Position numbers and translations under genes: made by a program. Under the pieces are notes generated by a model. It did not search any database. It was not told where the DNA came from and saw nothing but the letters and a program-made list of their open reading frames with translations. 33,955 nucleotides of DNA from Spirochaetales bacterium. GTDB lineage: Bacteria > Spirochaetota > Spirochaetia > Treponematales > UBA12059. Location: contig JAFGJV010000023.1 in assembly GCA_016928955.1 (NCBI GenBank), forward strand, positions 1-33,955, written 5' to 3'. This document shows positions 11,048 to 26,495 of the stretch, piece after piece; position 1 is the stretch's first letter; each line of letters starts with the position of its first letter.

Positions 11048-12352
11048 TCATAACAAGCTGGCCGCCAGCTCGGCAAGGTTGCTGCGCTCCGTTTTCTGGA
11101 GCGTCACGTGCCCGTAGACGGCCTGGCCCTTGAAGCGGTCCACCAGGTAGGACAGGCCATTGGAATTTGCGTCCAGGTACATGTTATCGATCTGGTAGGG
11201 GTCGCCCGTAAGGATCACCTTGGAGCCCTCGCCCGCTCTGGACACTATGGTCTTGATCTCGTGCGGGGTCAGGTTCTGGGCCTCGTCTATGATGATGAAC
11301 TGGTTGGGCAGGGAACGCCCGCGTATGTACGACAGGGCCTCTATCTCTATCAGCTTGTCCTTGACCAGCTGGTCGGCTGACTTGATCTTCTCCCTCTTGT
11401 GAGCCAACAGGATGAACTCCAGGTTGTCGAATAGGGGCTGCATCCAGTTGGCCATCTTTGCTCCCTTTTCTCCGGGCAGGTAGCCTATGTCCTTGCCCAC
11501 GGGCACCACCGGCCTGGACACGAGCATGCGCGTGTAGCGCTTTTCGTCTATTACCTTGCGCAGGCCCGCCGCAATGGCCATCAGGGTCTTGCCAGTGCCC
11601 GCCTTGCCAACCAGCGACACCAGCGGCAGGCTGTCGTCCAGCAGCAGTTCCAGGGCTATGCGCTGCCTTGAGTTCAGGGGGCTGATGCCGGATACGGAGC
11701 CCAGCTCGGCCTGCACCAGAGTAATGGTACCGCGATCCTGGTTCCAGCGCGCCAACACCTCGCGTTGCCCGTTGCGCAGTATGACAAATTCGTTGGCCTT
11801 GAGCTGGTCGCGCCAGCTCAGTTCCCCGTTGCCTTCCAGGGCGGCCAAGGTCTCCGTGTTGGCGTCCACTTCAATGACACCTTGGTAGAGACTGGCTATG
11901 TCCACCTTCTGTTTTTCGTAATCCACGGCCTTTAGGCCCAACGCGGTGGCCTTGACGCGGGCGTTTATGTCCTTGGACACAAAAAACACCTGGCGCCCGC
12001 GCTCAGCCAGCTCGAGCGCGCAGAGTATGATGCGGTTGTCCTTGATGGTCGTGTCGAAGCCCTCGGGCAGGCGGGACGGCTGCAGAAGGGACACCCTGAG
12101 AACCGAGCCGTTTTCGAGCTTGACGCCCTCGTTCAGGTTGCCTTTCTTGGCCACGGTATCCAGGAAGCGTATGGCTTCCCTGGCGCTTTTGCCCCGCTGG
12201 TCGGGATAAACTTTGAGGCCGTCCAGCTCTTCAAGCACCTGGAGCGGGATCACGATCTCGTTGTCGCGGAACGACAGAGCCGCCTCCGGATAGTGGATGA
12301 AGACATTGGTGTCTATGACGAACGCCTTGACCTGGTCTCCTGTGTCTCCCAC
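11048..12352 (-). CDS. PIN-PhoH protein (PhoH2-type ATPase/ribonuclease)
   Basis: A 434-residue two-domain protein. The N-terminal PIN domain (about residues 9-140) shows VIDTNVFIHYP, EELDGLK and FVSKDINARVKA, placing acidic residues where PIN nucleases bind metal. The C-terminal PhoH ATPase domain (about 225-430) has Walker A GKAGTGKT (249-256), RPVVPVGKDIGYLPG, Walker B FIIIDEAQN and VILTGDP. PhoH2-type proteins of this architecture couple an RNA helicase-like ATPase to a PIN ribonuclease. The GTG start is supported by AGGAGG five bases upstream and a TATACT promoter. The zinc-ribbon gene follows directly. Confidence 0.9.
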   Translation of the reverse strand: MGDTGDQVKAFVIDTNVFIHYPEAALSFRDNEIVIPLQVLEELDGLKVYPDQRGKSAREAIRFLDTVAKKGNLNEGVKLENGSVLRVSLLQPSRLPEGFDTTIKDNRIILCALELAERGRQVFFVSKDINARVKATALGLKAVDYEKQKVDIASLYQGVIEVDANTETLAALEGNGELSWRDQLKANEFVILRNGQREVLARWNQDRGTITLVQAELGSVSGISPLNSRQRIALELLLDDSLPLVSLVGKAGTGKTLMAIAAGLRKVIDEKRYTRMLVSRPVVPVGKDIGYLPGEKGAKMANWMQPLFDNLEFILLAHKREKIKSADQLVKDKLIEIEALSYIRGRSLPNQFIIIDEAQNLTPHEIKTIVSRAGEGSKVILTGDPYQIDNMYLDANSNGLSYLVDRFKGQAVYGHVTLQKTERSNLAELAASLL

Positions 12353-16140: not shown

Positions 16141-18924
16141 TCAGGCACGTCCCGGACCGGCAAGCACCTGCTCTGCCAGGGTTTTCAGCCCGGTGTCTTC
16201 AGGCTTGCCTTCAAGCGCCGTGCGGTTGAGCGTGAATACCCCGTCAACCATCACAATCACGTCAGCGGACGGTACCGTGTCCAGGTCCGCCGGTTCCGAG
16301 TCGCCTATGGCCAACAGCTCCTCCAGGGCGGGACGGAACGATAGCGGCGAGCGCGACAGGGGTCTGTAGTGGGACACGCCGCCCAGACTGAGCACATCCA
16401 GGTCCGCTGGTTCCTCGCCCTCGCCGTCAGCCTGCACCACCTGCAGTTCCTCCAGGCGCTCCCTGTCCTCGTCGGACAGCATGGCGTATTCCTGGGCAAA
16501 GGGTATGTCCTCGTCCCGGGGCTGGGTATCTTCAGAAGGTCGGTCGGTTTGGGCAAACGCGGCGTCGTCCAGTTCCAGGAAACCTTCCTCGTCGCGGTAA
16601 TCCTCCAGGGCGGACAGGTCCAGCGTGGCCAGGAAGAGGTCGAACTCAACCTCGTCCAGAAGCTCGTCCTCCGCGCGGACCTCGCCGTCGCCCACGGCCA
16701 GTATGGGCTCATTGTCCGGCCGGCGCACCGAGAATTCCTCCAGCTCGCTGAGCTCTACCGCGCGGACGTCGTCAAAGGGCGACGCGAGCACGAGGCCATC
16801 CATGTCGTCGGGCAGTTCCAGGGACTGCCCAGGCGCGCGTGCGTCCGTGGCCGGGCGGACATCCATGTACGTCTGGATATCCGCCATGTTCGTCTCCTCG
16901 ACCAGTTCGAGACCGAGGGCTTCGGGAATAAGGGGAATGTCGTCGTCATGCTGGCTGGACAGGGCCAGGGCTTCCGCCGAAAGGCTGCCCCACGCTTCAG
17001 GTCCTGGCTTGCTGGCCGCGCTTGCCCTCTCCTGGGCAAGCTGCCGAACCTCCATCTCAGTTATGGGCTCGACCTCGTCCAGTTCCCCGAGTTCTTCGAT
17101 GTCCTCCGCTTCGTCCACCGATTCAAGATCGTGCACAAAGCCCGGCTCATCGGCTGTCTCCACCCGTACGGCCGCAGAACCCGGCAAGCCGTCCGCAAAA
17201 CCGAGCGGTATCGCCTCCTCATCCTCAAGGGGCGCCAGTTCTTCAAGGGCTTCTATTTCCTCAACAGTTTCGGCTTCTTCAAAGGCTTGTGCTTCCTCGG
17301 CAGCTTCCGCTTCCTCGACAAGCTCCGCATCCTCAAGGGCCTCGGCTTCCTCGACTGCTTCTGCTTCCTCGACAGCCTCTGCTTCCTCAAGGGCTTCGGC
17401 TTCCTCGACAGCCTCCGCCTCCTCAAAGGTTTCGGCTTCCTCTAAGGTCTCTGCTTCCTCAAGGGCTTCAGCTTCTTCGACAGCCTCCGCTTCCTCAAGC
17501 GACTCCACTTCCTCGGCAGCTTCAGCTGTACGGGCAAGAGCGGCCTGGCCCAGACCTTCAGGCTGCCTGGATGCCTCGGGCATGTCGGCTGTCGCAGGGG
17601 CAATCCCTGCCCGGGGGGCGGGCGGGACGGAAGCCCGGTACCCAAGGGCCGGGGCTGCAGGAGCGCCGACAAAGACCCGACCCGAGCTCAGGGCTTCCCT
17701 GAGCAGGGCTTCAATGCGGGCCAGATCGGTGTCCTTGCCCTTGCTGGAAGACAGTATGGCCACGATCTCGTCCCAGCCCTTGTCTATCAAAGCGTCCACT
17801 TCGGCCGAGCGGGTGTCGGCCAGTCGGCCGGCGCTCTGGCGTATGCGCGAGCGCACCTCTGAACGCCTGGCTTCCAGCTCGACGCCCAGCCTGTCCGTAT
17901 CCAAGCCGCCCTTGCGGTCCAGATACTCCTCTATCAGGCTGAGCTGGAACCGTTTGATGCGCTGTCCCAGTATGGCCATACGGTCATGCTTGACGTTGAG
18001 GAGCAGGAAGCAGAGCAGGAAGGTGGTTAGGTACAGGGCCGCAAGGAGAAGCCAGCGCATGGCCTGGGGAAAGACGAACCAAGACGAAGGCACCAGGCGC
18101 CCCAGGGGGCCCGCCTTGCTGCCCACGGTGAACACGATATAGGTATCCGACGCGCCAGCCGAGCCCACGGTCAAGGGTTCGCCCGGCATGCCACCCGACC
18201 ACAGCTCGGCCACGCGCCCAAGGAGGTCGTCGCCGCCCCAGGATGGCGCCCCGAACAGAAGGCCCTGGCCCGCCGGCACGGGATCGTCGTCCAGGCCTGC
18301 CTGCCCGTCGCGTACCAGGTGCTCCATGAGACCGGCATACGACACGTAGAACACGGCCGTGCCGCGGTATACGTCCAGGGCGTCGACAAAGGGGAAACGG
18401 TACACAAAGGACCGCGACGAGCCCAGGGAAACAACCGAGGGCGGCTCGTCTCGACCAGCCACTGCTATGAGGGAAAACGGCTCGTCGTTTTCTTCCCCAT
18501 ATTTGCGGTAGACGACGCGTAGTTCGTCCCGGCGCGCTATGTCGCCGGGGAAGGTGCTGAAGTGAAGCCGCTTGCCGTCGGTGTCAAGAAAACGCACCCC
18601 TTCCAGGCCGGGGGTCTCCTCGACCAGGCGGCCAAAGGCCGCCGTTCGCTGGAAAAGGTCCTCGGCTCCCTGGTTGGGGAGGAAACTGCGAGCCACGTAA
18701 TCTTTGGCCAGGACGGCGCCGAAGCGCTCAAGATTGACCGAGTGGTAGGTGTCCGCGGAGCGGGCCAGTGATTCCAGGGCGTCTTCCACGCCCGAACGCA
18801 CCCTGGCGTCGAAAAAACGGGTCTCGACCACGGAAAACACGCCCGAGAAGGCCAGAACGGCAAAGCCGGCGGCCAGGATGGTTGAGACGAGTAAACTGAG
18901 CGACGCCTTTTGCCCTACGGTCAT
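16141..18924 (-). CDS. Large two-helix membrane protein with sensor-like ectodomain and acidic hexapeptide repeats
   Basis: A 927-residue protein I cannot assign to a named family. Helix 1 (about residues 8-30) is followed by an extracytoplasmic domain of about 250 residues. Its layout (helical stretch, then VRFLDTDGKRLHFSTFPGD and a later FYVSY strand) resembles a double-Cache-type sensor. Helix 2 spans about 291-310. The cytoplasmic part has a helical region (315-410), a Pro/Ala linker, an extremely acidic repeat (about 470-570) of six-residue units such as EEAEAV and EEAEAL, then a long acidic tail. No kinase, cyclase or methyl-accepting domain is visible. AAGGA lies upstream of the ATG, and the promoter has a perfect TATAAT next to a palindrome. 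A scaffold or sensor role is speculation. Confidence 0.72.
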   Translation of the reverse strand: MTVGQKASLSLLVSTILAAGFAVLAFSGVFSVVETRFFDARVRSGVEDALESLARSADTYHSVNLERFGAVLAKDYVARSFLPNQGAEDLFQRTAAFGRLVEETPGLEGVRFLDTDGKRLHFSTFPGDIARRDELRVVYRKYGEENDEPFSLIAVAGRDEPPSVVSLGSSRSFVYRFPFVDALDVYRGTAVFYVSYAGLMEHLVRDGQAGLDDDPVPAGQGLLFGAPSWGGDDLLGRVAELWSGGMPGEPLTVGSAGASDTYIVFTVGSKAGPLGRLVPSSWFVFPQAMRWLLLAALYLTTFLLCFLLLNVKHDRMAILGQRIKRFQLSLIEEYLDRKGGLDTDRLGVELEARRSEVRSRIRQSAGRLADTRSAEVDALIDKGWDEIVAILSSSKGKDTDLARIEALLREALSSGRVFVGAPAAPALGYRASVPPAPRAGIAPATADMPEASRQPEGLGQAALARTAEAAEEVESLEEAEAVEEAEALEEAETLEEAETFEEAEAVEEAEALEEAEAVEEAEAVEEAEALEDAELVEEAEAAEEAQAFEEAETVEEIEALEELAPLEDEEAIPLGFADGLPGSAAVRVETADEPGFVHDLESVDEAEDIEELGELDEVEPITEMEVRQLAQERASAASKPGPEAWGSLSAEALALSSQHDDDIPLIPEALGLELVEETNMADIQTYMDVRPATDARAPGQSLELPDDMDGLVLASPFDDVRAVELSELEEFSVRRPDNEPILAVGDGEVRAEDELLDEVEFDLFLATLDLSALEDYRDEEGFLELDDAAFAQTDRPSEDTQPRDEDIPFAQEYAMLSDEDRERLEELQVVQADGEGEEPADLDVLSLGGVSHYRPLSRSPLSFRPALEELLAIGDSEPADLDTVPSADVIVMVDGVFTLNRTALEGKPEDTGLKTLAEQVLAGPGRA
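17211..17520 (-). repeat. Imperfect 18-bp tandem repeats encoding acidic hexapeptides
   Basis: About sixteen copies of a degenerate 18-base unit encode variants of Glu-Glu-Ala-Glu-(Ala/Thr)-(Val/Leu/Phe). The reading frame is kept throughout because the unit is a multiple of three. Repeats of this type can gain or lose copies by slippage, so the protein length may vary between strains. Confidence 0.88.
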
Positions 18925-18948
18925 GTCTTCCTTACAGTTTCGGCATCC

Positions 18949-18960
18949 GGAACATGTTCC
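18949..18960. promoter_or_regulatory. Operator-like perfect palindrome at the predicted transcription start
   Basis: GGAACATGTTCC is a perfect 12-bp palindrome directly adjoining the TATAAT of the leftward promoter and covering its predicted +1 (about 18954). A repressor bound here would block the leftward gene. It is not the Gram-positive LexA box, which has four bases between GAAC and GTTC rather than two. Confidence 0.4.
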
Positions 18961-18991
18961 ATTATAGGTCGAGATGGCCGGTCAGTATCAA
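18961..18991 (-). promoter_or_regulatory. Promoter of the acidic-repeat membrane protein gene
   Basis: On the minus strand there is TTGATA (18991-18986), a 19-base spacer and a perfect TATAAT (18966-18961). The spacer is long, but the -10 is the best match in the window. The leader of about 30 bases contains AAGGA before the ATG at 18924. Confidence 0.6.
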
Positions 18992-19000
18992 GCCGCGTCG

Positions 19001-19030
19001 TTGCCCGCGGACGGCCCCAGCCTGTATACT
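19001..19030 (+). promoter_or_regulatory. Promoter of the protease-propeller-barrel gene
   Basis: TTGCCC (19001-19006), an 18-base spacer and TATACT (19025-19030). Transcription should start near 19037, giving a leader of about 29 bases that contains AAAGGA before the ATG at 19066. It is divergent from the promoter at 18961-18991, ten bases away. Confidence 0.62.
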
Positions 19031-19065
19031 GCACTCACGGCCGCGCTTGGCCTGAAAGGACTCCC

Positions 19066-21840
19066 ATGTTCGCACAAGCCGTATCCAGAACCGCCCTGGC
19101 AACCATGGTGCTGCTTGCGCTGGCCGTTCCCGTCCACACGCAGGACGGCAGCCTCAGGGTCATCAGCACGGAATGGTTCGACATTATCTACCATGAAGAC
19201 ACGCGAGCATGCGCCGAATATCTGGCCGGCTTTGCCGACGATACCTACCGCCAGGTGGCCGGGCTTTTGGCCACCAAGCCGAAGCGCAGGCTACCCGTCT
19301 ACCTTTCAGGCGCGTCGGAAGACGCCAACGGCCATTATTCGTCCTACCCCTATCCCCACATCGTGCTTGGCCTTGCCGCCCCGGACGTCAACGGCCAGCT
19401 GGGGTCGTTCAAGGACAGCCTGCGCTCCATCTTTCTCCACGAGCTCACCCACCATGTGTCGCTCGGCATCCGGGGGCCGTTCCAGGACGCCATGGTGGCC
19501 GTGTTCGGCTCTCCCCTGGCCCTGTCGCCCTATACCACGCCGCTGTCGTTCGTGGAGGGAGTGACCGTGTCCCTTGAGAGCTTGGACGGGCACGGCCGAG
19601 CCGCTGATCCGTTGGCGGCGGCGCTGATCCGCCAGGACATACTGGAGGGCCGCTTCAAGTCCTGGGAGCAGGCGGCCGGAGGCTGGGACCTGTGGCCAGG
19701 CGCCCTGTTCTACGAATACGGCGGCTGGTTCTCCCGCTACCTCCAGGAGCGTTACGGCATGGAAGCCTATGCCGAATTGTGGAAGCGGCTGGGCACCGGC
19801 ATGCTCGCCAAGCCCCTGGACCGGGGCCTGTTCAGCGACGGGCATTTTATGGATGTTTACGGGCTGACGCTCGACCGTGCCTGGGACGATTTCCGCGACT
19901 GGATGTCCATCAAAGAAGCCGTGCTCATGGACGTCCGGACCCTATCCGGAATTTCGGTGATACCTGCCTTGGCCGTATTTAACGGCACCCTGTACTATGC
20001 AGACGCCCGCAAGGAAGCCGTGTGCGCCATGGCCGCCGCCGGAGGACCATCCCGGGAGCTGTTCCGCCTGTCCCGCACGGTCACCCGCATAGACGCTGAG
20101 CCGGACGGCAAGCTTCTATTGTCCACGGTCGCCGTGAAGTCCGGCCAGGCCAGGCTGGTGCTGTCCGCGTGGGATCCGGCGGCCGGAAGGCTGACCGACC
20201 TGCCCTATCGCTCGCTCCGCGACGCCTCGCGCACGCCCGAGGGAAGCATCCTGGCCATACGGGTGGACGGCCCCCGCGGCGATATCGTCGTTACGGACGG
20301 CAGTGGCGTCAATGTTGTTCTCAAAGGAAGCGAACGGGTTGCATACGCGTCGCCCAGCTTCAATCCGGGTGACGGTCTCATATACGCCTTGGCCAAGATA
20401 GACGGGACGACTCGGGTACTGCGGGTTGCCCCGGACGGTTCACAGCCCGAACTGCTTGAGCTTCCGGACGCGCTCTCCCACCTGCGCTACCTCAGCCTGG
20501 ACGACGCCGTACTGCGGGCAGCCTGGGACGACCGCAGCCTGTACCGCCTCCTGGAAGTGGACCTTGCTTCTGGCCTGGCCACCTGGCAGACCGTACCTCA
20601 AAGCGGAGGCGTCCACTGGCCGGTGGGCTCGGATGGGGGCCTGTGGTACATAGGCAATTTTTCGGACGGCAACGCCGTGTGCACGTATCCGCCTGAGCGG
20701 GCGACCCTGGGCTTTGCCGCGGCCCAGGTGGCCTGGGAAGACGCGTCGGGAACCCTGCCCGGCGACAGCGTCTATGACAGCCCGGCGTCGCTGGATACAA
20801 AGCCCTACTCGTCCCTTCCCTGGCTCCAGCCCCGGCACTGGCTTCCTTACGCGAGCCTGGACGGGCTGGACCTTGCGGAGCTCGGGGCGTCCCTGTACCT
20901 GGCCGAGCCCACAGAGAGCTTCTCCGCCGTGCTGGCCGGAGCTTGGGACCTGGAAGCCCGCGCGGTGGACGCCGCCATAACCCTAAGCTGGTTCCTGGAC
21001 GGATGGGACCTTACCCTGTACGCGAGCGACGATTTTCTGCCGCCGAAAACCACAGCCCCAGTGGCTCCCGGCCTGAGGGCAAGCGCCGCGGGCATACGGG
21101 GCTCGGGCACGGCGGCCGGCCGCACCTCGGGCGCCCTGAGCTGGAGCGTGGCCGCGGAACTGGCCGCAGCCGCCGAGTTTGCCGCTGGGCCGTCGCCCTA
21201 TGTAGCGTGGACCGATACGGGCATGATGGCTGTCCTTGGCCTGGGCTGGAGCGACACTCGTAGGCCGGCTGCCCAGGCGCCCCTGGCCGGCTGGACCCTT
21301 GACGCCGTCGGCAAGCTCATCTTTCCCCTGGGTTCAGGCTGGGAAGCGCCTGCGTACTCCGGCGAGGCGAGCGTCCTGTTGATGGCCTGGGGCCTTGGCC
21401 TGCGCGTGGACGCGGCCGTGTGCGGCCCGGGCGCCCTGTATGGAGCCTACGGCCTGCAAACGGAAGGCCTGTGGTTCAGGGCGTTCTACCCCGTGTATCC
21501 GGAACTGAGCAACCTTCCCAGCGGGCCCTGGTACGCCCAAGCCGAGCTGTCCGCGCGGCTTTTGGGCGCGGAAGTGCAGAAGGGCGGCCTTGCGTATATC
21601 AACAGGCTGGCCCTCAGGGCGGGCGCGCGCGCCAATGGTCTGTACGCCGCCACTGCAGGCGTGGATGATGCGTGGGAGTCCGTGTCCCTGTTCGGGCGGC
21701 TGGAACTGACCCTGACACCCGTGGCCGGCGCCTTTGCGCGCCTCCATCCCCTGGTCGCGCTGGAATTCTGGGGCCTGCCGTTTACGGGCAGGCTCGGTTT
21801 CGGTATTATGGGCACCTTCGACGCGCCGACCCAGCCCTAG
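19066..21840 (+). CDS. Exported gluzincin-like metalloprotease with beta-propeller and barrel-like C-terminus
   Basis: A 924-residue exported protein. The ATG at 19066 has AAAGGA upstream and gives a signal peptide (residues 1-25, ending VHTQ); the open frame extends further upstream without support. Residues 30-280 look like a peptidase MA-type domain: HELTH at 125-129 supplies two zinc ligands and the catalytic Glu, and FVEG (Glu164) the third ligand. Residues about 290-600 contain repeating blades typical of TolB/WD40-like propellers (AEPDGKLLLSTV, PSFNPGDGLIYALAKIDGT). Residues about 615-924 alternate short aromatic-rich strands and turns in the style of an outer-membrane barrel, though the chain ends DAPTQP rather than in a terminal Phe. 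If correct, it is a self-anchored surface protease. The domain limits are my estimate. Confidence 0.72.
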   Translation: MFAQAVSRTALATMVLLALAVPVHTQDGSLRVISTEWFDIIYHEDTRACAEYLAGFADDTYRQVAGLLATKPKRRLPVYLSGASEDANGHYSSYPYPHIVLGLAAPDVNGQLGSFKDSLRSIFLHELTHHVSLGIRGPFQDAMVAVFGSPLALSPYTTPLSFVEGVTVSLESLDGHGRAADPLAAALIRQDILEGRFKSWEQAAGGWDLWPGALFYEYGGWFSRYLQERYGMEAYAELWKRLGTGMLAKPLDRGLFSDGHFMDVYGLTLDRAWDDFRDWMSIKEAVLMDVRTLSGISVIPALAVFNGTLYYADARKEAVCAMAAAGGPSRELFRLSRTVTRIDAEPDGKLLLSTVAVKSGQARLVLSAWDPAAGRLTDLPYRSLRDASRTPEGSILAIRVDGPRGDIVVTDGSGVNVVLKGSERVAYASPSFNPGDGLIYALAKIDGTTRVLRVAPDGSQPELLELPDALSHLRYLSLDDAVLRAAWDDRSLYRLLEVDLASGLATWQTVPQSGGVHWPVGSDGGLWYIGNFSDGNAVCTYPPERATLGFAAAQVAWEDASGTLPGDSVYDSPASLDTKPYSSLPWLQPRHWLPYASLDGLDLAELGASLYLAEPTESFSAVLAGAWDLEARAVDAAITLSWFLDGWDLTLYASDDFLPPKTTAPVAPGLRASAAGIRGSGTAAGRTSGALSWSVAAELAAAAEFAAGPSPYVAWTDTGMMAVLGLGWSDTRRPAAQAPLAGWTLDAVGKLIFPLGSGWEAPAYSGEASVLLMAWGLGLRVDAAVCGPGALYGAYGLQTEGLWFRAFYPVYPELSNLPSGPWYAQAELSARLLGAEVQKGGLAYINRLALRAGARANGLYAATAGVDDAWESVSLFGRLELTLTPVAGAFARLHPLVALEFWGLPFTGRLGFGIMGTFDAPTQP

Positions 21841-21966: not shown

Positions 21967-22776
21967 ATGAAAGCAGGATTCGCCGAACGCGTGGAGCGCG
22001 CGGCAGCATCGATTCCGTCAGGGTTCAGGCCGAGCGCCGCCGTCATCCTTGGTTCCGGCCTGTCCGGCATAGTGGACGGCCTAGGCTACAAGGAAGTGCC
22101 CTTTGGCGACATAGCCGAATTCCCCCGCCCGACCGTCCACGGCCACAAGGGCGTCCTGTGCCTGTCCGAGCGCAACGCGGTCATGGCCGGCCGCTTCCAT
22201 TACTACGAGGGCCACCCCATGGACGACGTGGTGCTGCCCATCTTCGTGCTCCACGCCATAGGCGTGCGCACCCTCATGCTGACCAACGCCGCCGGCGCGG
22301 TCAATCCCGACTACACACCTGGCGACCTGGTCGTCATCAAGGACCACATCAACCTGTTGGGCACCAATCCCTTCATCGGGCCCAACCCCGCCAGCCAGGA
22401 CGGCACGGCCCTGGGCCAGCGCTTCTTTGACATGGGCACCACCTACACGCCTGAGCTCAGGCAGTTGGTGCAGTCCTGCGCACAGCGCACCCTCAAGGAG
22501 GGCGTGTACGCAGCCTTTACCGGACCCTCGTACGAGACGCCGGCCGAGGTACGCATGGCCCGCACCCTGGGGGCGGACCTGGTGGGCATGTCCACCGTGC
22601 CCGAGGCCATAGCCGCCCGCTACCTGGGCATGCGCGTGATGGGCGTGTCCTGCGTGACCAACATGGCCGCGGGCATCACGGACCAGCCCCTGGCCCACGA
22701 CGAGGTGGTGGAAGTCGGCAAGCGCGTGGAAGCCGAACTCAAGCGCCTGATCTTGGACGTGCTGGCCAAACTGTAA
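21967..22776 (+). CDS. punA: Purine nucleoside phosphorylase, trimeric (PNP/MTAP) type
   Basis: Catalyses phosphorolysis of (deoxy)guanosine and inosine to base and (deoxy)ribose 1-phosphate in purine salvage. The 269-residue protein has the phosphate-binding GSGLSG (29-34), RFHYYEGHP (76-84), TNAAGAVN, the base-binding GPSYETPAE (186-194), GMSTVPE (207-213) and VTNMAAG with Asn232. That Asn favours 6-oxopurines (guanine, hypoxanthine) over adenine. GAGGAG six bases upstream supports the ATG at 21967. The next gene (JAMM-DinG) starts ten bases after its stop, so the two are co-transcribed, although their roles differ. Confidence 0.94.
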   Translation: MKAGFAERVERAAASIPSGFRPSAAVILGSGLSGIVDGLGYKEVPFGDIAEFPRPTVHGHKGVLCLSERNAVMAGRFHYYEGHPMDDVVLPIFVLHAIGVRTLMLTNAAGAVNPDYTPGDLVVIKDHINLLGTNPFIGPNPASQDGTALGQRFFDMGTTYTPELRQLVQSCAQRTLKEGVYAAFTGPSYETPAEVRMARTLGADLVGMSTVPEAIAARYLGMRVMGVSCVTNMAAGITDQPLAHDEVVEVGKRVEAELKRLILDVLAKL

Positions 22777-22786
22777 CCCGGCAGCC

Positions 22787-25219
22787 ATGAAAGCCCTGGA
22801 ACGCTTCACCCCCCAGGCTGCGGCCTATCTCAGAACCGCCATAGCCGAGGCCGGGTGCGTTGAGGTGTTCGCCGCGGGCAAGCTGGACGAGGCCGGGCTG
22901 GTATCAGAGCTGGTGGTCGCGGCGCGCGGAGTGGACGACGCCGTGCCAGCCCTGGCCGGCTTTTTGGACCGGGGCGACGTAATCGTGCACAACCACCCAT
23001 CCGGCGTGCTCATGGCCAGCCAGGCCGACCTGGCCATAGCAGCGCGCGCCGGCGAGGGCGGCGTGGGCTCCTATATTGTGGACAACGACGTGGCCGAGGT
23101 ATACGTGGTAGCCGAGCCCGTCCGCGCCAAGGCCCTCATAGCCCTGGACGAGGACCAGCTGGCCGGGGTCCTGGACTCGGGCGGCAAGCTGGCCGCGCGC
23201 CTGCCGGGCTACGAGCCGAGGCCCAGCCAGCTTGGCCTGGTCAGGGACGCGGCCGCCGCCTTCAACAACGGCCTTATCCTGGCGGCCGAAGCCGGCACGG
23301 GCGTGGGCAAGTCCTTTGCCTACCTCATACCCGCCCTGGCCTGGGCGGCCCGCAACGGCGAGCGCGTGGTGGTGTCCACCGCCACCATCAACCTCCAGCG
23401 CCAGCTCATGGACAAGGACCTGCCCGTGGCCTCGTCCATATTCAAGAAAAAGCTCAAGGCCGTCCTGGTCAAAGGCAGGGGCAACTACCTGTGCGTCAAC
23501 CGACTGCGCGAGGCCCTGGATGAGGAAGGCCTCTTTGCCGGAGACGATAGCCCCCTTAGGCGCATAGACGCCTGGTCGCAGAACTCCCCAACGGGCGACC
23601 GCGCCGACCTGTCCTTCTGGCCGGACGACGCCACTTGGTCGCGCGTATGCTCGGAAGCCGACGAGTGCCTGGGCCTCCGCTGTCCGTACCGCGAGTCCTG
23701 CTTTGTGCTCAAGGTGCGCAAGGACGCGGCCGACGCGGATATCCTGGTGGCCAACCACCACATCCTGTTCAGCGACCTTGCGGCCAGGCGCGCAGGCGCA
23801 GGCTACGAGGCCAGGGCCGTGCTCCCGCCCTTCAACGCCATCGTGTTCGACGAGGCTCACGCCATCGAGTCCAGCGCCACGAGCTTTTTTTCCGAGGAAC
23901 TGGCGCGTTATTCCGTGTACAAACAGCTGGGGCGCCTGTACCGCGAGCGTCGCGGGCGCAAATTCGGCATAGTCACCAAGCTGCAGAACATACGGAACCT
24001 GCCCCCGGACGTGCTCAAGAATTTCCCCGCGGCATCGGACGCCGTGCGCGACGCCATGGACGAGCTGGACAGGGCGGCGCTGGCCTTGATTGGCGACGGG
24101 CAGAATTACCGCCTGACCCCGGCCACACGCTCGCGTTCAGAACCCCTGCTCGAAGCGGCGGGTGTGCTGGAACGAGCCCTCCGCTCGCTGTCCGACCTCC
24201 TCAAGACTGCAATAGAGGAAGTGCCCGACGAGTCGTCGGAGGAGCCTCCCGTGCACGAGGCCAAGCTGTCGCTCCGCAGGTTATCGGAGCTGGCCGGGCT
24301 GTGCGCGCGCTACCGCGGCTGGGAAGACGACCAGGAAAGCATTTTCTGGCTGGACAGGCGCAGGAACGCCCAGGGAGAAGCCTTCTCCCAGCTGTGCGTG
24401 ACGCCCCTGGACATAGGCCAGATGATGGACGAGGCGGTGTTCCACCCCTACCGCTCGGTGATATGCACGTCGGCCACCCTGTCCGTAGGCGGCTCCTTTG
24501 CGTTCTGGAAGCGGCGCGTGGGCCTTACGCAGGCTGACGAGCGTACCGTCTGCCGGGAATATTCGTCGCCCTTTCCCTTCAAGCGCAACGCCATCCTGTG
24601 CGCCGCCCAGGACGCCCCCGACCCGACCAGCCCCGAGTGGCAGGAATGGATCAACGCGGCGCTGCCGGAACTGGTGGCCGCGTCCAGCGGCCGGGCCCTG
24701 GTGCTGTTCACGTCCTACACAGCGCTCAGGTCGGCCTGGGACGCCGTCAGGCCCAAACTTGACGCCCTTGGCCTGTCGTCATACCGCCAGGGCGACGACG
24801 AACGCTCCCGCCTCCTGGACCGTTTCCGCGACGACGTGGCCAGCGTGCTCTTTGCCACGGACTCCTTCTGGGAGGGCGTTGACCTGCCCGGCGAAACCCT
24901 CCAGCACGTCATCATCACCAAACTACCCTTCCGCGTGCCCACCGATCCCGTACAGATGGCGCGCTCCGAGGCCATAGAGCGGCGCGGGGGCAACGCCTTC
25001 ATGGATCTGTCCCTGCCGGACGCGGTCATACGCTTCAAACAGGGTTTTGGACGGCTTATTCGCCACTCCGAGGACCGCGGCGCCGTGACGGTGCTGGATT
25101 CCCGCCTGCTCAAGAAACGCTACGGCCAGATTTTCATAGCGTCGCTCCCCGAGACCAGGAAAAGCTTCAAGAACCTGCGCGAGCTGTGCGCCGACGTGCG
25201 GTCGTTCCTGGAGGAATGA
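22787..25219 (+). CDS. DinG-family helicase fused to an N-terminal JAMM/RadC-like domain
   Basis: An 810-residue superfamily 2 helicase of the DinG/XPD class. Residues 1-130 form a JAB/JAMM-type domain with the complete motif HNHP-x6-S-x2-D (His68, His70, Ser78, Asp81), as in RadC. The helicase part has Walker A AGTGVGKS (169-176), STATINLQRQL, cysteines suited to an iron-sulfur cluster (Cys236, 288, 294, 299, 305), DEAH (355-358), and C-terminal motifs LFATDSFWEGVDLPGETL and the final FKQGFGRLIRH. A 5'-3' iron-sulfur helicase acting on recombination or replication intermediates is likely. The JAMM part could bind zinc and act as a metalloprotease or a structural module; its activity is unknown. 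No good Shine-Dalgarno precedes the ATG, consistent with coupling to the phosphorylase gene ten bases upstream. Confidence 0.88.
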   Translation: MKALERFTPQAAAYLRTAIAEAGCVEVFAAGKLDEAGLVSELVVAARGVDDAVPALAGFLDRGDVIVHNHPSGVLMASQADLAIAARAGEGGVGSYIVDNDVAEVYVVAEPVRAKALIALDEDQLAGVLDSGGKLAARLPGYEPRPSQLGLVRDAAAAFNNGLILAAEAGTGVGKSFAYLIPALAWAARNGERVVVSTATINLQRQLMDKDLPVASSIFKKKLKAVLVKGRGNYLCVNRLREALDEEGLFAGDDSPLRRIDAWSQNSPTGDRADLSFWPDDATWSRVCSEADECLGLRCPYRESCFVLKVRKDAADADILVANHHILFSDLAARRAGAGYEARAVLPPFNAIVFDEAHAIESSATSFFSEELARYSVYKQLGRLYRERRGRKFGIVTKLQNIRNLPPDVLKNFPAASDAVRDAMDELDRAALALIGDGQNYRLTPATRSRSEPLLEAAGVLERALRSLSDLLKTAIEEVPDESSEEPPVHEAKLSLRRLSELAGLCARYRGWEDDQESIFWLDRRRNAQGEAFSQLCVTPLDIGQMMDEAVFHPYRSVICTSATLSVGGSFAFWKRRVGLTQADERTVCREYSSPFPFKRNAILCAAQDAPDPTSPEWQEWINAALPELVAASSGRALVLFTSYTALRSAWDAVRPKLDALGLSSYRQGDDERSRLLDRFRDDVASVLFATDSFWEGVDLPGETLQHVIITKLPFRVPTDPVQMARSEAIERRGGNAFMDLSLPDAVIRFKQGFGRLIRHSEDRGAVTVLDSRLLKKRYGQIFIASLPETRKSFKNLRELCADVRSFLEE

Positions 25220-25277: not shown

Positions 25278-26495
25278 ATGGCGATATACGCGCTGGAAAA
25301 CGCTATCCAAAAATACGACTGGGGCGATCCGGACATCCTTCCCGTGTTTCTCGCAAAGGATAATCCGCACAGGGATCCGTGGGCGGAGCTGTGGATAGGC
25401 ACCCATCCCAAGGCCATGTCCCTGGCCATAACGCCCGGCGGGGCCAGGTTGCCCCTGGACCGCGTTCTGGACGGTGGCCTGACCGACGGGCGGCCGGCCC
25501 TGCCCTTCATGCTCAAGCTCCTGGCCGTGGCCAGCCCCCTGTCCATGCAGGTGCACCCCAGCGCCCGCAAGGCAGTGGAAGGCTACCAGCGCGAACAGCT
25601 GGCCGCCATACCCCTGGAAGCGGCGGAGCGCAACTACGTGGACCGCAACGCCAAGTCTGAGTTCGTGGTTGCCCTGGAACGCTTTGAGGGCATGTGCGGC
25701 TTCAGGCCCGTGGACGACATACTGGCCACCCTGCGCCTGGTGGCCGGGCCCCACCTCAAGGAGTACGTTGGCCGCTTTGCCGCCGACCCCTGCCGGCGGG
25801 AGCTGGCCGTCCTGTTCTACACGTTCATATCGATGAGCGAAAGCCGAAAGACAGACATCCTGTCCAAGATCAGGCCGCGCATAGACCGGCTACTCCAGAC
25901 AGAGCGGCCGGGCTCGCCCGTGGCAAGGGTACTTGGCTGGATACCGCGCCTCATGGACGCGTTTCCGGGGGATATGGGCGCCCTTGGCCCCATGCTCCTC
26001 AACACCTTTGAGCTGGAACCCGGCCAGGGCCTGGCCGTTCCTCCCGGCGAGCCCCACGCCTATTTCCGCGGCTTTGCGCTGGAAGCCATGGCAAGCTCGG
26101 ACAACGAGGTGCGCGGCGGCCTGACCCGCAAGCGCGTGGACATGCCTGAGTTCATAGCCGCCTTGAATTTCGACACTCCGCCCCTACAGATACAGGAACC
26201 GTCCCGCCGAAAAAGCGGCTTCCGCCCCTACGATGCCAAATCCGACGATTTCACGCTGGCCGTCATGGACCTGGACGGTCGTTACGCCCGCGCCCAGAGG
26301 CGCCCCGGCCCCGAACTCCTCCTGTGCGTGTCAGGCGGCCTTCGTCTGGAAGGCTCTGGCGGCGACGCCGTGGACCTGGCCCGCGGCCAGGCGGCGTTCG
26401 TGTCAAGCGACGAAACAGGCTACAGCATGACGGGGGCAGGAACCGTATTCAGGGCCCTTGGCGGATCGCGCATACGCGGTGTGCTGACGGCATGA
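25278..26495 (+). CDS. manA: Mannose-6-phosphate isomerase, class I
   Basis: A zinc enzyme that interconverts mannose 6-phosphate and fructose 6-phosphate, linking glycolysis to mannose and GDP-mannose metabolism. The 405-residue protein has AIQKYDWG at the start, WAELWIGTHP, the zinc-site MQVHPS, the conserved Glu in KSEFVVALERFEGMCGF, PPGEPHAYF and the family signature SSDNEVRGGLTRKRVD. The length is typical. The promoter upstream predicts a leaderless mRNA. The stop overlaps the start of the YaiI/YqxD gene (ATGA). The gene follows the helicase gene by 58 bases but has its own promoter. Confidence 0.95.
   Translation: MAIYALENAIQKYDWGDPDILPVFLAKDNPHRDPWAELWIGTHPKAMSLAITPGGARLPLDRVLDGGLTDGRPALPFMLKLLAVASPLSMQVHPSARKAVEGYQREQLAAIPLEAAERNYVDRNAKSEFVVALERFEGMCGFRPVDDILATLRLVAGPHLKEYVGRFAADPCRRELAVLFYTFISMSESRKTDILSKIRPRIDRLLQTERPGSPVARVLGWIPRLMDAFPGDMGALGPMLLNTFELEPGQGLAVPPGEPHAYFRGFALEAMASSDNEVRGGLTRKRVDMPEFIAALNFDTPPLQIQEPSRRKSGFRPYDAKSDDFTLAVMDLDGRYARAQRRPGPELLLCVSGGLRLEGSGGDAVDLARGQAAFVSSDETGYSMTGAGTVFRALGGSRIRGVLTA

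Follow-up and report, generated by a model that had tools for sequence, protein, structure and literature searches.

A RadC-like JAMM domain fused to a YoaA/DinG-type iron-sulfur helicase in spirochaetes, with a conserved metal site and repeated loss of the domain

The stretch of Spirochaetales DNA analysed here (33,955 nucleotides, hereafter the window) encodes, at positions 22787-25219 of the forward strand, an 810-residue protein in which a RadC-like domain with a complete set of JAMM residues is joined to an XPD/DinG-family iron-sulfur helicase. The architecture has already been described. Indeed, the protein belongs to the 'RadC-like DinG' subgroup that Cheng named in a 2025 review, without experiments (PMC11981726), and RadC-DinG fusions had been cited earlier by Aravind's group, who in the passage concerned predicted a role in nucleic-acid processing (PMC5512222). 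The initial annotation knew of no experimental work on this combination and we likewise found none, in line with the review's own statement, in its passages on the subgroup, that no research had been done on it. The string 'Spirochaet' does not occur in the main text of the review (its tables lying outside this scope), and the repeated loss and the degenerate forms of the domain that we report below do not appear in the relevant passages of either publication.

Results

The initial annotation had proposed that the N-terminal part of the protein (22787-23200, which translates to residues 1-138) is JAMM/RadC-like, and both profile searches and structure prediction bore this out. Searched alone against JAB/RadC profiles, residues 1-138 matched Pfam RadC (PF04002) with 23.4 bits (E 6e-5; cut-off 22.1), the alignment falling mainly around the metal motif; with the full 810-residue protein as query the score was only 18.4 bits, below the same cut-off. 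This weak single-sequence evidence became strong once the whole family was considered: all 32 domains of a diverse set of homologues matched Pfam RadC (best E 1.6e-10), 28 of them also matched Prok-JAB more weakly, and a profile of the fused domains recovered the C. tepidum RadC 2qlc (E 1.5e-6) and, in a profile-profile comparison, the canonical RadC of the same lineages (97.5% probability, E 5.8e-12). The RadC/JAMM assignment is more than chance. We place the domain at 22787..23128 (forward strand, residues 1 to about 114/115), on the basis of PF04002, the AlphaFold2 model and the invariant catalytic residues. That model, built for the aligned N-terminal domain (pLDDT 89.4), resembled JAMM/MPN and RadC structures; its best Foldseek matches were the archaeal JAMM AF2198, Rpn11 homologues and, at rank 4, RadC 2qlc. 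VIA-align gave Z scores of 10-11 to BubCD, CsRpn11 and PfJAMM1, with Citrobacter BubCD and an archaeal Rpn11-ubiquitin complex among the best structures, whereas 2qlc, despite its Foldseek rank, was absent from the best 50 VIA-align matches listed.

The metal motif itself follows the HxH-x7-S-x2-D spacing, with H68 (22988-22990) and H70 (22994-22996) as the two histidines, followed by S78 (23018-23020) and D81 (23027-23029), all on the forward strand and exactly as initially annotated. That first list had omitted E26 (22862-22864, forward strand), the glutamate of the JAMM set; a JAMM centre requires such a catalytic residue. The protein therefore carries what defines JAMM/MPN+ proteins, namely the glutamate and HxH-x7-S-x2-D on a JAB fold. 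In 110 spirochaete homologues, with identities down to approximately 45%, each of the five residues was invariant wherever its position was covered. All five were also among the 15 invariant columns (out of 138) of the diverse 32-sequence set, for which we calculate a chance of about 8e-6 that five given columns would all be invariant. Of 80 fused sequences from across the phylum and Fusobacterium, 77 had the complete E-H-H-S-D set; the other three were two degenerate forms and one truncated contig. Thus, neither of the findings that the initial annotation had named as speaking against its proposal, a lack of any JAMM relationship in profile searches or loss of the HxH/S/D residues in close homologues, was obtained, and loss of metal ligands was limited to a few distant copies. 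From what is known of the family, we infer that the N-terminal domain binds metal and acts as a hydrolase.

The remainder of the protein is, as first annotated, a full DinG-type helicase. Its YoaA-like helicase part (23204..25216, forward strand), delimited by YoaA/DinG profiles and Helicase_C_2, contains Walker A (GTGVGKS, residues 170-176), four Fe-S cysteines (C236, C294, C299 and C305) and DEAH (residues 355-358), which together characterise the DinG/XPD Fe-S superfamily. Pfam Helicase_C_2 covers residues 628-789 (E 3.5e-46), and the helicase motifs were conserved in 130 aligned homologues. NCBIfam YoaA scored 559 bits over residues 128-793, below its equivalog cut-off of 680, and the DinG profiles scored 406-438 bits, again below their equivalog cut-offs. 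The AlphaFold2 model of the full-length protein (810 residues, pLDDT 86.8) terminates in a helix at residues 797-809; according to the passages on the subgroup (PMC11981726), RadC-like DinG resembles YoaA in having, in motor domain 2, a C-terminal alpha7 helix. The linker between the two parts (23129..23203, forward strand, residues ~115-139) belongs with the helicase, and we set the domain border at about residue 115 because homologues devoid of the RadC-like domain, which begin around residues 101-118, retain the stretch from there onwards. By family resemblance, the protein would be expected to have helicase activity and to function at damaged DNA.

In a phylum-wide sample of 296 genomes, the full-length profile matched 267; many of the genomes, also from deep families, contained the fusion. 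A contig scan returned at least 80 loci that were apparently all spirochaetal, save one labelled merely 'bacterium'. One reduced spirochaete genome of the same order (G032, 1.1 Mb) contained neither a DinG-type helicase nor a RadC match. Almost every relative examined also carried a separate canonical RadC, the same genomes retaining both; in the window's own genome this gene lies at G000:C22:6508-6861. The canonical proteins have HPRE(V/I)F and LDH signatures that are both missing from the fused domains of the same genomes, which by sequence makes the fused domain RadC-like rather than a canonical RadC. In the domain tree a single branch with a support of 100 divided the canonical from the fused forms, and the fused domain is a lineage apart from canonical RadC. 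Given these separate clades and the separate canonical RadC genes, we rejected the idea of a displaced canonical RadC gene. Moreover, pairwise distances of the N-terminal domain and of the helicase correlated at 0.86 (82 sequences), compared with a maximum of 0.19 in 500 permutations, and the two parts therefore evolve as one unit. It seems, then, that the fusion is a single unit, ancient in spirochaetes, whose two parts have been passed on jointly.

Even so, the domain has been lost repeatedly. By our own count, the Treponema-containing family (f3) comprised 94 full-length fusions, 32 domain-less orthologues and 2 degenerate forms; the domain-less orthologues start at residues ~101-118, and several come from single-contig genomes. 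On the helicase tree they were interleaved with fused orthologues. In the 51-row part covering families f3 and f5 this amounted to 14 losses on the resolved tree and at least 8 with weak branches collapsed, counts that apply to a FastTree tree with an assumed rooting, irreversible losses and deliberate over-sampling of domain-less genomes. Three-frame scans found essentially no RadC remnants upstream of the domain-less copies; one locus (L219) had an N-terminal piece from residue 97 and is possibly a broken gene, and another (L180, family f14) had a very weak upstream RadC piece. Upstream sequence was also short for two of the domain-less copies (L260 and L270), and a further candidate loss (L197) was ruled out as a contig edge. 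The helicase motifs of the domain-less copies were still intact, from which it follows that the helicase is independent of the domain. Accordingly, the suggestion in the initial annotation that the JAMM part acts on or regulates the helicase received no direct support, although the processing of a protein at a DNA lesion, the example given there, may still apply.

Some copies retained the domain in degenerate form. In the fusion of Fusobacterium vincentii (one genome), H68 and H70 are replaced (H68R, H70T), E26 is missing and a glutamate is aligned at D81. The record concerned (NZ_CP084075.1, L170 4001-6400) is filed as a plasmid and is, at 2.1 Mb, chromosome-like, as are several PLSDB records of 4-5 Mb that are labelled as plasmids. 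Among Treponemataceae, one degenerate domain lacked E26 and H68 (L221), and in a third degenerate form (L258) the HNHP motif and the E26 position were gone, as judged by eye. These two and one domain-less copy formed a single well-supported clade, which suggests that in this treponeme clade catalysis was lost ahead of the domain. The 175-residue N-terminal stretch of L180 also looked degenerate by eye and gave a marginal profile match. Given the repeated losses and the ligand-less forms, the chemistry of the domain is dispensable in many niches.

The genomic surroundings pointed to no fixed partner. A gene of the purine nucleoside phosphorylase (PNP) family (21967..22776, forward strand; PNP_UDP_1, 1.5e-49) ends 10 bases before the ATG of the fusion on the same strand and is probably co-transcribed with it; a PNP cluster was found upstream in 31 analysed loci. 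Downstream lies a gene of the type I mannose-6-phosphate isomerase family (25278..26495, forward strand; PMI_typeI_cat, 9.5e-23), which adjoins the fusion mainly in the window's own family and its close relatives. Other lineages had different neighbours, including RelA/SpoT-like and PlsC-like genes (identified by eye from sequence). We therefore rejected PNP and the isomerase as conserved operon partners, the association being mostly family-specific, and no conserved partner gene emerged among the analysed loci. No recurrent E1, E2 or ubiquitin-like clusters were recognised among the commonest neighbours, most of which were identified by eye. HolC (PF04364) was found in none of 30 genomes, the window's own included, with a positive E. 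coli control.

A mobile-element, phage or CRISPR origin was likewise rejected, the scanned part of the window consisting of ordinary chromosomal genes. The best phage matches were confined to the helicase part, and viral RadC matches were short. The helicase part matched the PADLOC model typeIV_DinG, but the housekeeping character of the scanned genes speaks against a Type IV CRISPR CasDinG, and matches on Thermus plasmids concerned another, large helicase. Elsewhere in the window we noted a PhoH-like protein that carries a PIN domain at its N-terminus (11048-12352, reverse strand; PhoH2-type architecture), a 976-residue open reading frame that matched nothing in Pfam even at E up to 1 (18910-21840, forward strand) and its divergent neighbour, which had only a weak LED-repeat match (16141-18924, reverse strand). 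In three Treponema-family genomes, further RadC domains (G037:C4:64186-64521, G040:C50:12364-12681 and G055:C1:957007-957177) lie within other long open frames of 1993, 815 and 398 residues, respectively, which may encode polyvalent proteins that belong to mobile elements.

Discussion

We tentatively propose that the fusion is a YoaA/DinG-type helicase equipped with a predicted JAMM hydrolase arm whose substrate is a protein adduct. In broader terms, the N-terminal domain is most likely an accessory metallo-hydrolase arm that works on anything the helicase lays bare at a lesion; any ranking of substrates is speculative, with a protein adduct as first guess and nucleic acid as a close second. 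The helicase would load onto single-stranded DNA at a lesion or where a fork has stalled, translocate, displace the strand and push into bound material, whereupon the N-terminal zinc hydrolase would cut what has been exposed, in the favoured case a DNA-protein crosslink. We prefer a protein adduct because, to our knowledge, all JAMM enzymes are peptidases or isopeptidases, and because FANCJ and SPRTN offer an analogy. FANCJ, a related eukaryotic Fe-S helicase, unfolds crosslinked proteins, on which the metalloprotease SPRTN then acts (PMC12279946). That the fusion is a single-chain bacterial counterpart of this pair, in which the helicase pushes and its own JAMM domain cuts the DNA-bound protein, strikes us as unlikely in so specific a form. 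S. aureus DinG has a 3'-5' exonuclease at its N-terminus, both activities are required for resistance to DNA crosslinkers, and sensitivity to formaldehyde and mitomycin C has been reported for this ExoDinG (PMC12345164). In DinG relatives, then, the N-terminal slot houses lesion-processing enzymes, a point in favour of the proposal. Against it count the losses of the domain from intact helicases, the ligand-less forms, the YoaA and DinG scores below the equivalog cut-offs, and the view of Aravind's group that RadC proteins have no groove for a ubiquitin tail and might be nucleases (PMC5512222). Both ExoDinG and FANCJ-SPRTN serve here as analogies, not as evidence about the fusion protein.

The same slot is occupied by nucleases in other DinG subgroups (PMC11981726, PMC12345164), which lends weight to a possible but rather doubtful alternative: that the domain has metal-dependent nuclease or nucleotide-processing activity and trims the strand that the helicase has exposed, like the exonuclease of ExoDinG or the endonuclease of EndoDinG. 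The RadC family as a whole was considered by Aravind's group as perhaps a nuclease, in the passage that argues for its lack of a ubiquitin-tail groove (PMC5512222). However, DALI searches with the RadC-like domain, as reported in the passages on the subgroup, matched metalloproteases and no nucleases (PMC11981726). The top structural matches of our own model are likewise JAMM peptidases, although a fold match is not proof of function. Also counting against a nuclease, we know of no JAMM-fold member of that kind.

Decidedly improbable, in our view, is a docking or structural role, in which the domain serves to position the helicase or to bind a partner, replacing HolC binding, and catalysis is secondary or lost. 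The still-fused but ligand-less domains of Fusobacterium vincentii and of two Treponemataceae genomes would fit such a role, as would the absence of HolC from the 30 relatives searched, which agrees with what Cheng reported. Yet all five catalytic residues have stayed invariant across deeply diverged sequences, which argues for selected chemistry, and the degenerate treponeme forms share a clade with a domain-less copy, which looks like decay and not like a stable new role. Least probable of all, and very unlikely, is removal of a ubiquitin-like modifier from a fork protein, as by BRCC36 or a Bub/BilC-type JAMM: the full E/HxH/S/D set is that of deubiquitinases and the modelled fold resembles BubCD and the Rpn11-ubiquitin complex, but the commonest neighbours included no recognised recurrent E1, E2 or ubiquitin-like cluster, and the sequence is of the RadC type (HNHPSG...PS..D), for which the groove was argued to be missing (PMC5512222).

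RadC is widespread. If the fusion is indeed a single-chain counterpart of FANCJ and SPRTN, a RadC-family domain would for the first time have been shown to be active in DNA repair, and the losses among treponemes would point to niches in which such damage is scarce. The fusion ties a RadC-like domain, with an active site that is invariant in most copies, to a helicase of known type, and the domain-less orthologues and ligand-less copies form natural, ready-made pairs for probing RadC chemistry.

Among known systems, the protein agrees with RadC-like DinG as described in the review, whose model protein is from Desulfuromonas soudanensis: there, too, an N-terminal RadC-like domain with modelled zinc and conserved E/H/H/D precedes a YoaA-like Fe-S helicase in a genome without HolC (PMC11981726). 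With canonical RadC (PF04002; 2qlc) it shares the HNHPSG...PS..D motif and the JAMM fold, but its domain is joined to a helicase, lacks HPREVF and LDH and belongs to a separate clade. The helicase part resembles E. coli YoaA/DinG in its Fe-S cysteines and helicase motifs, and differs in scoring below the equivalog cut-offs, in having no HolC partner and in its extra N-terminal domain. FANCJ and SPRTN likewise combine an XPD-family Fe-S helicase with a metalloprotease, a likeness of working principle only; the two are not joined in one chain, SPRTN belongs to the SprT-type proteases and not to the JAMM enzymes, and the fusion is known from sequence. ExoDinG of S. aureus has a 3'-5' exonuclease in place of the JAMM domain (PMC12345164), yet it too joins a DinG helicase to an enzymatic N-terminal domain, predicted to be so in the fusion, and it too has a pseudo-enzyme sister class (pExoDinG).
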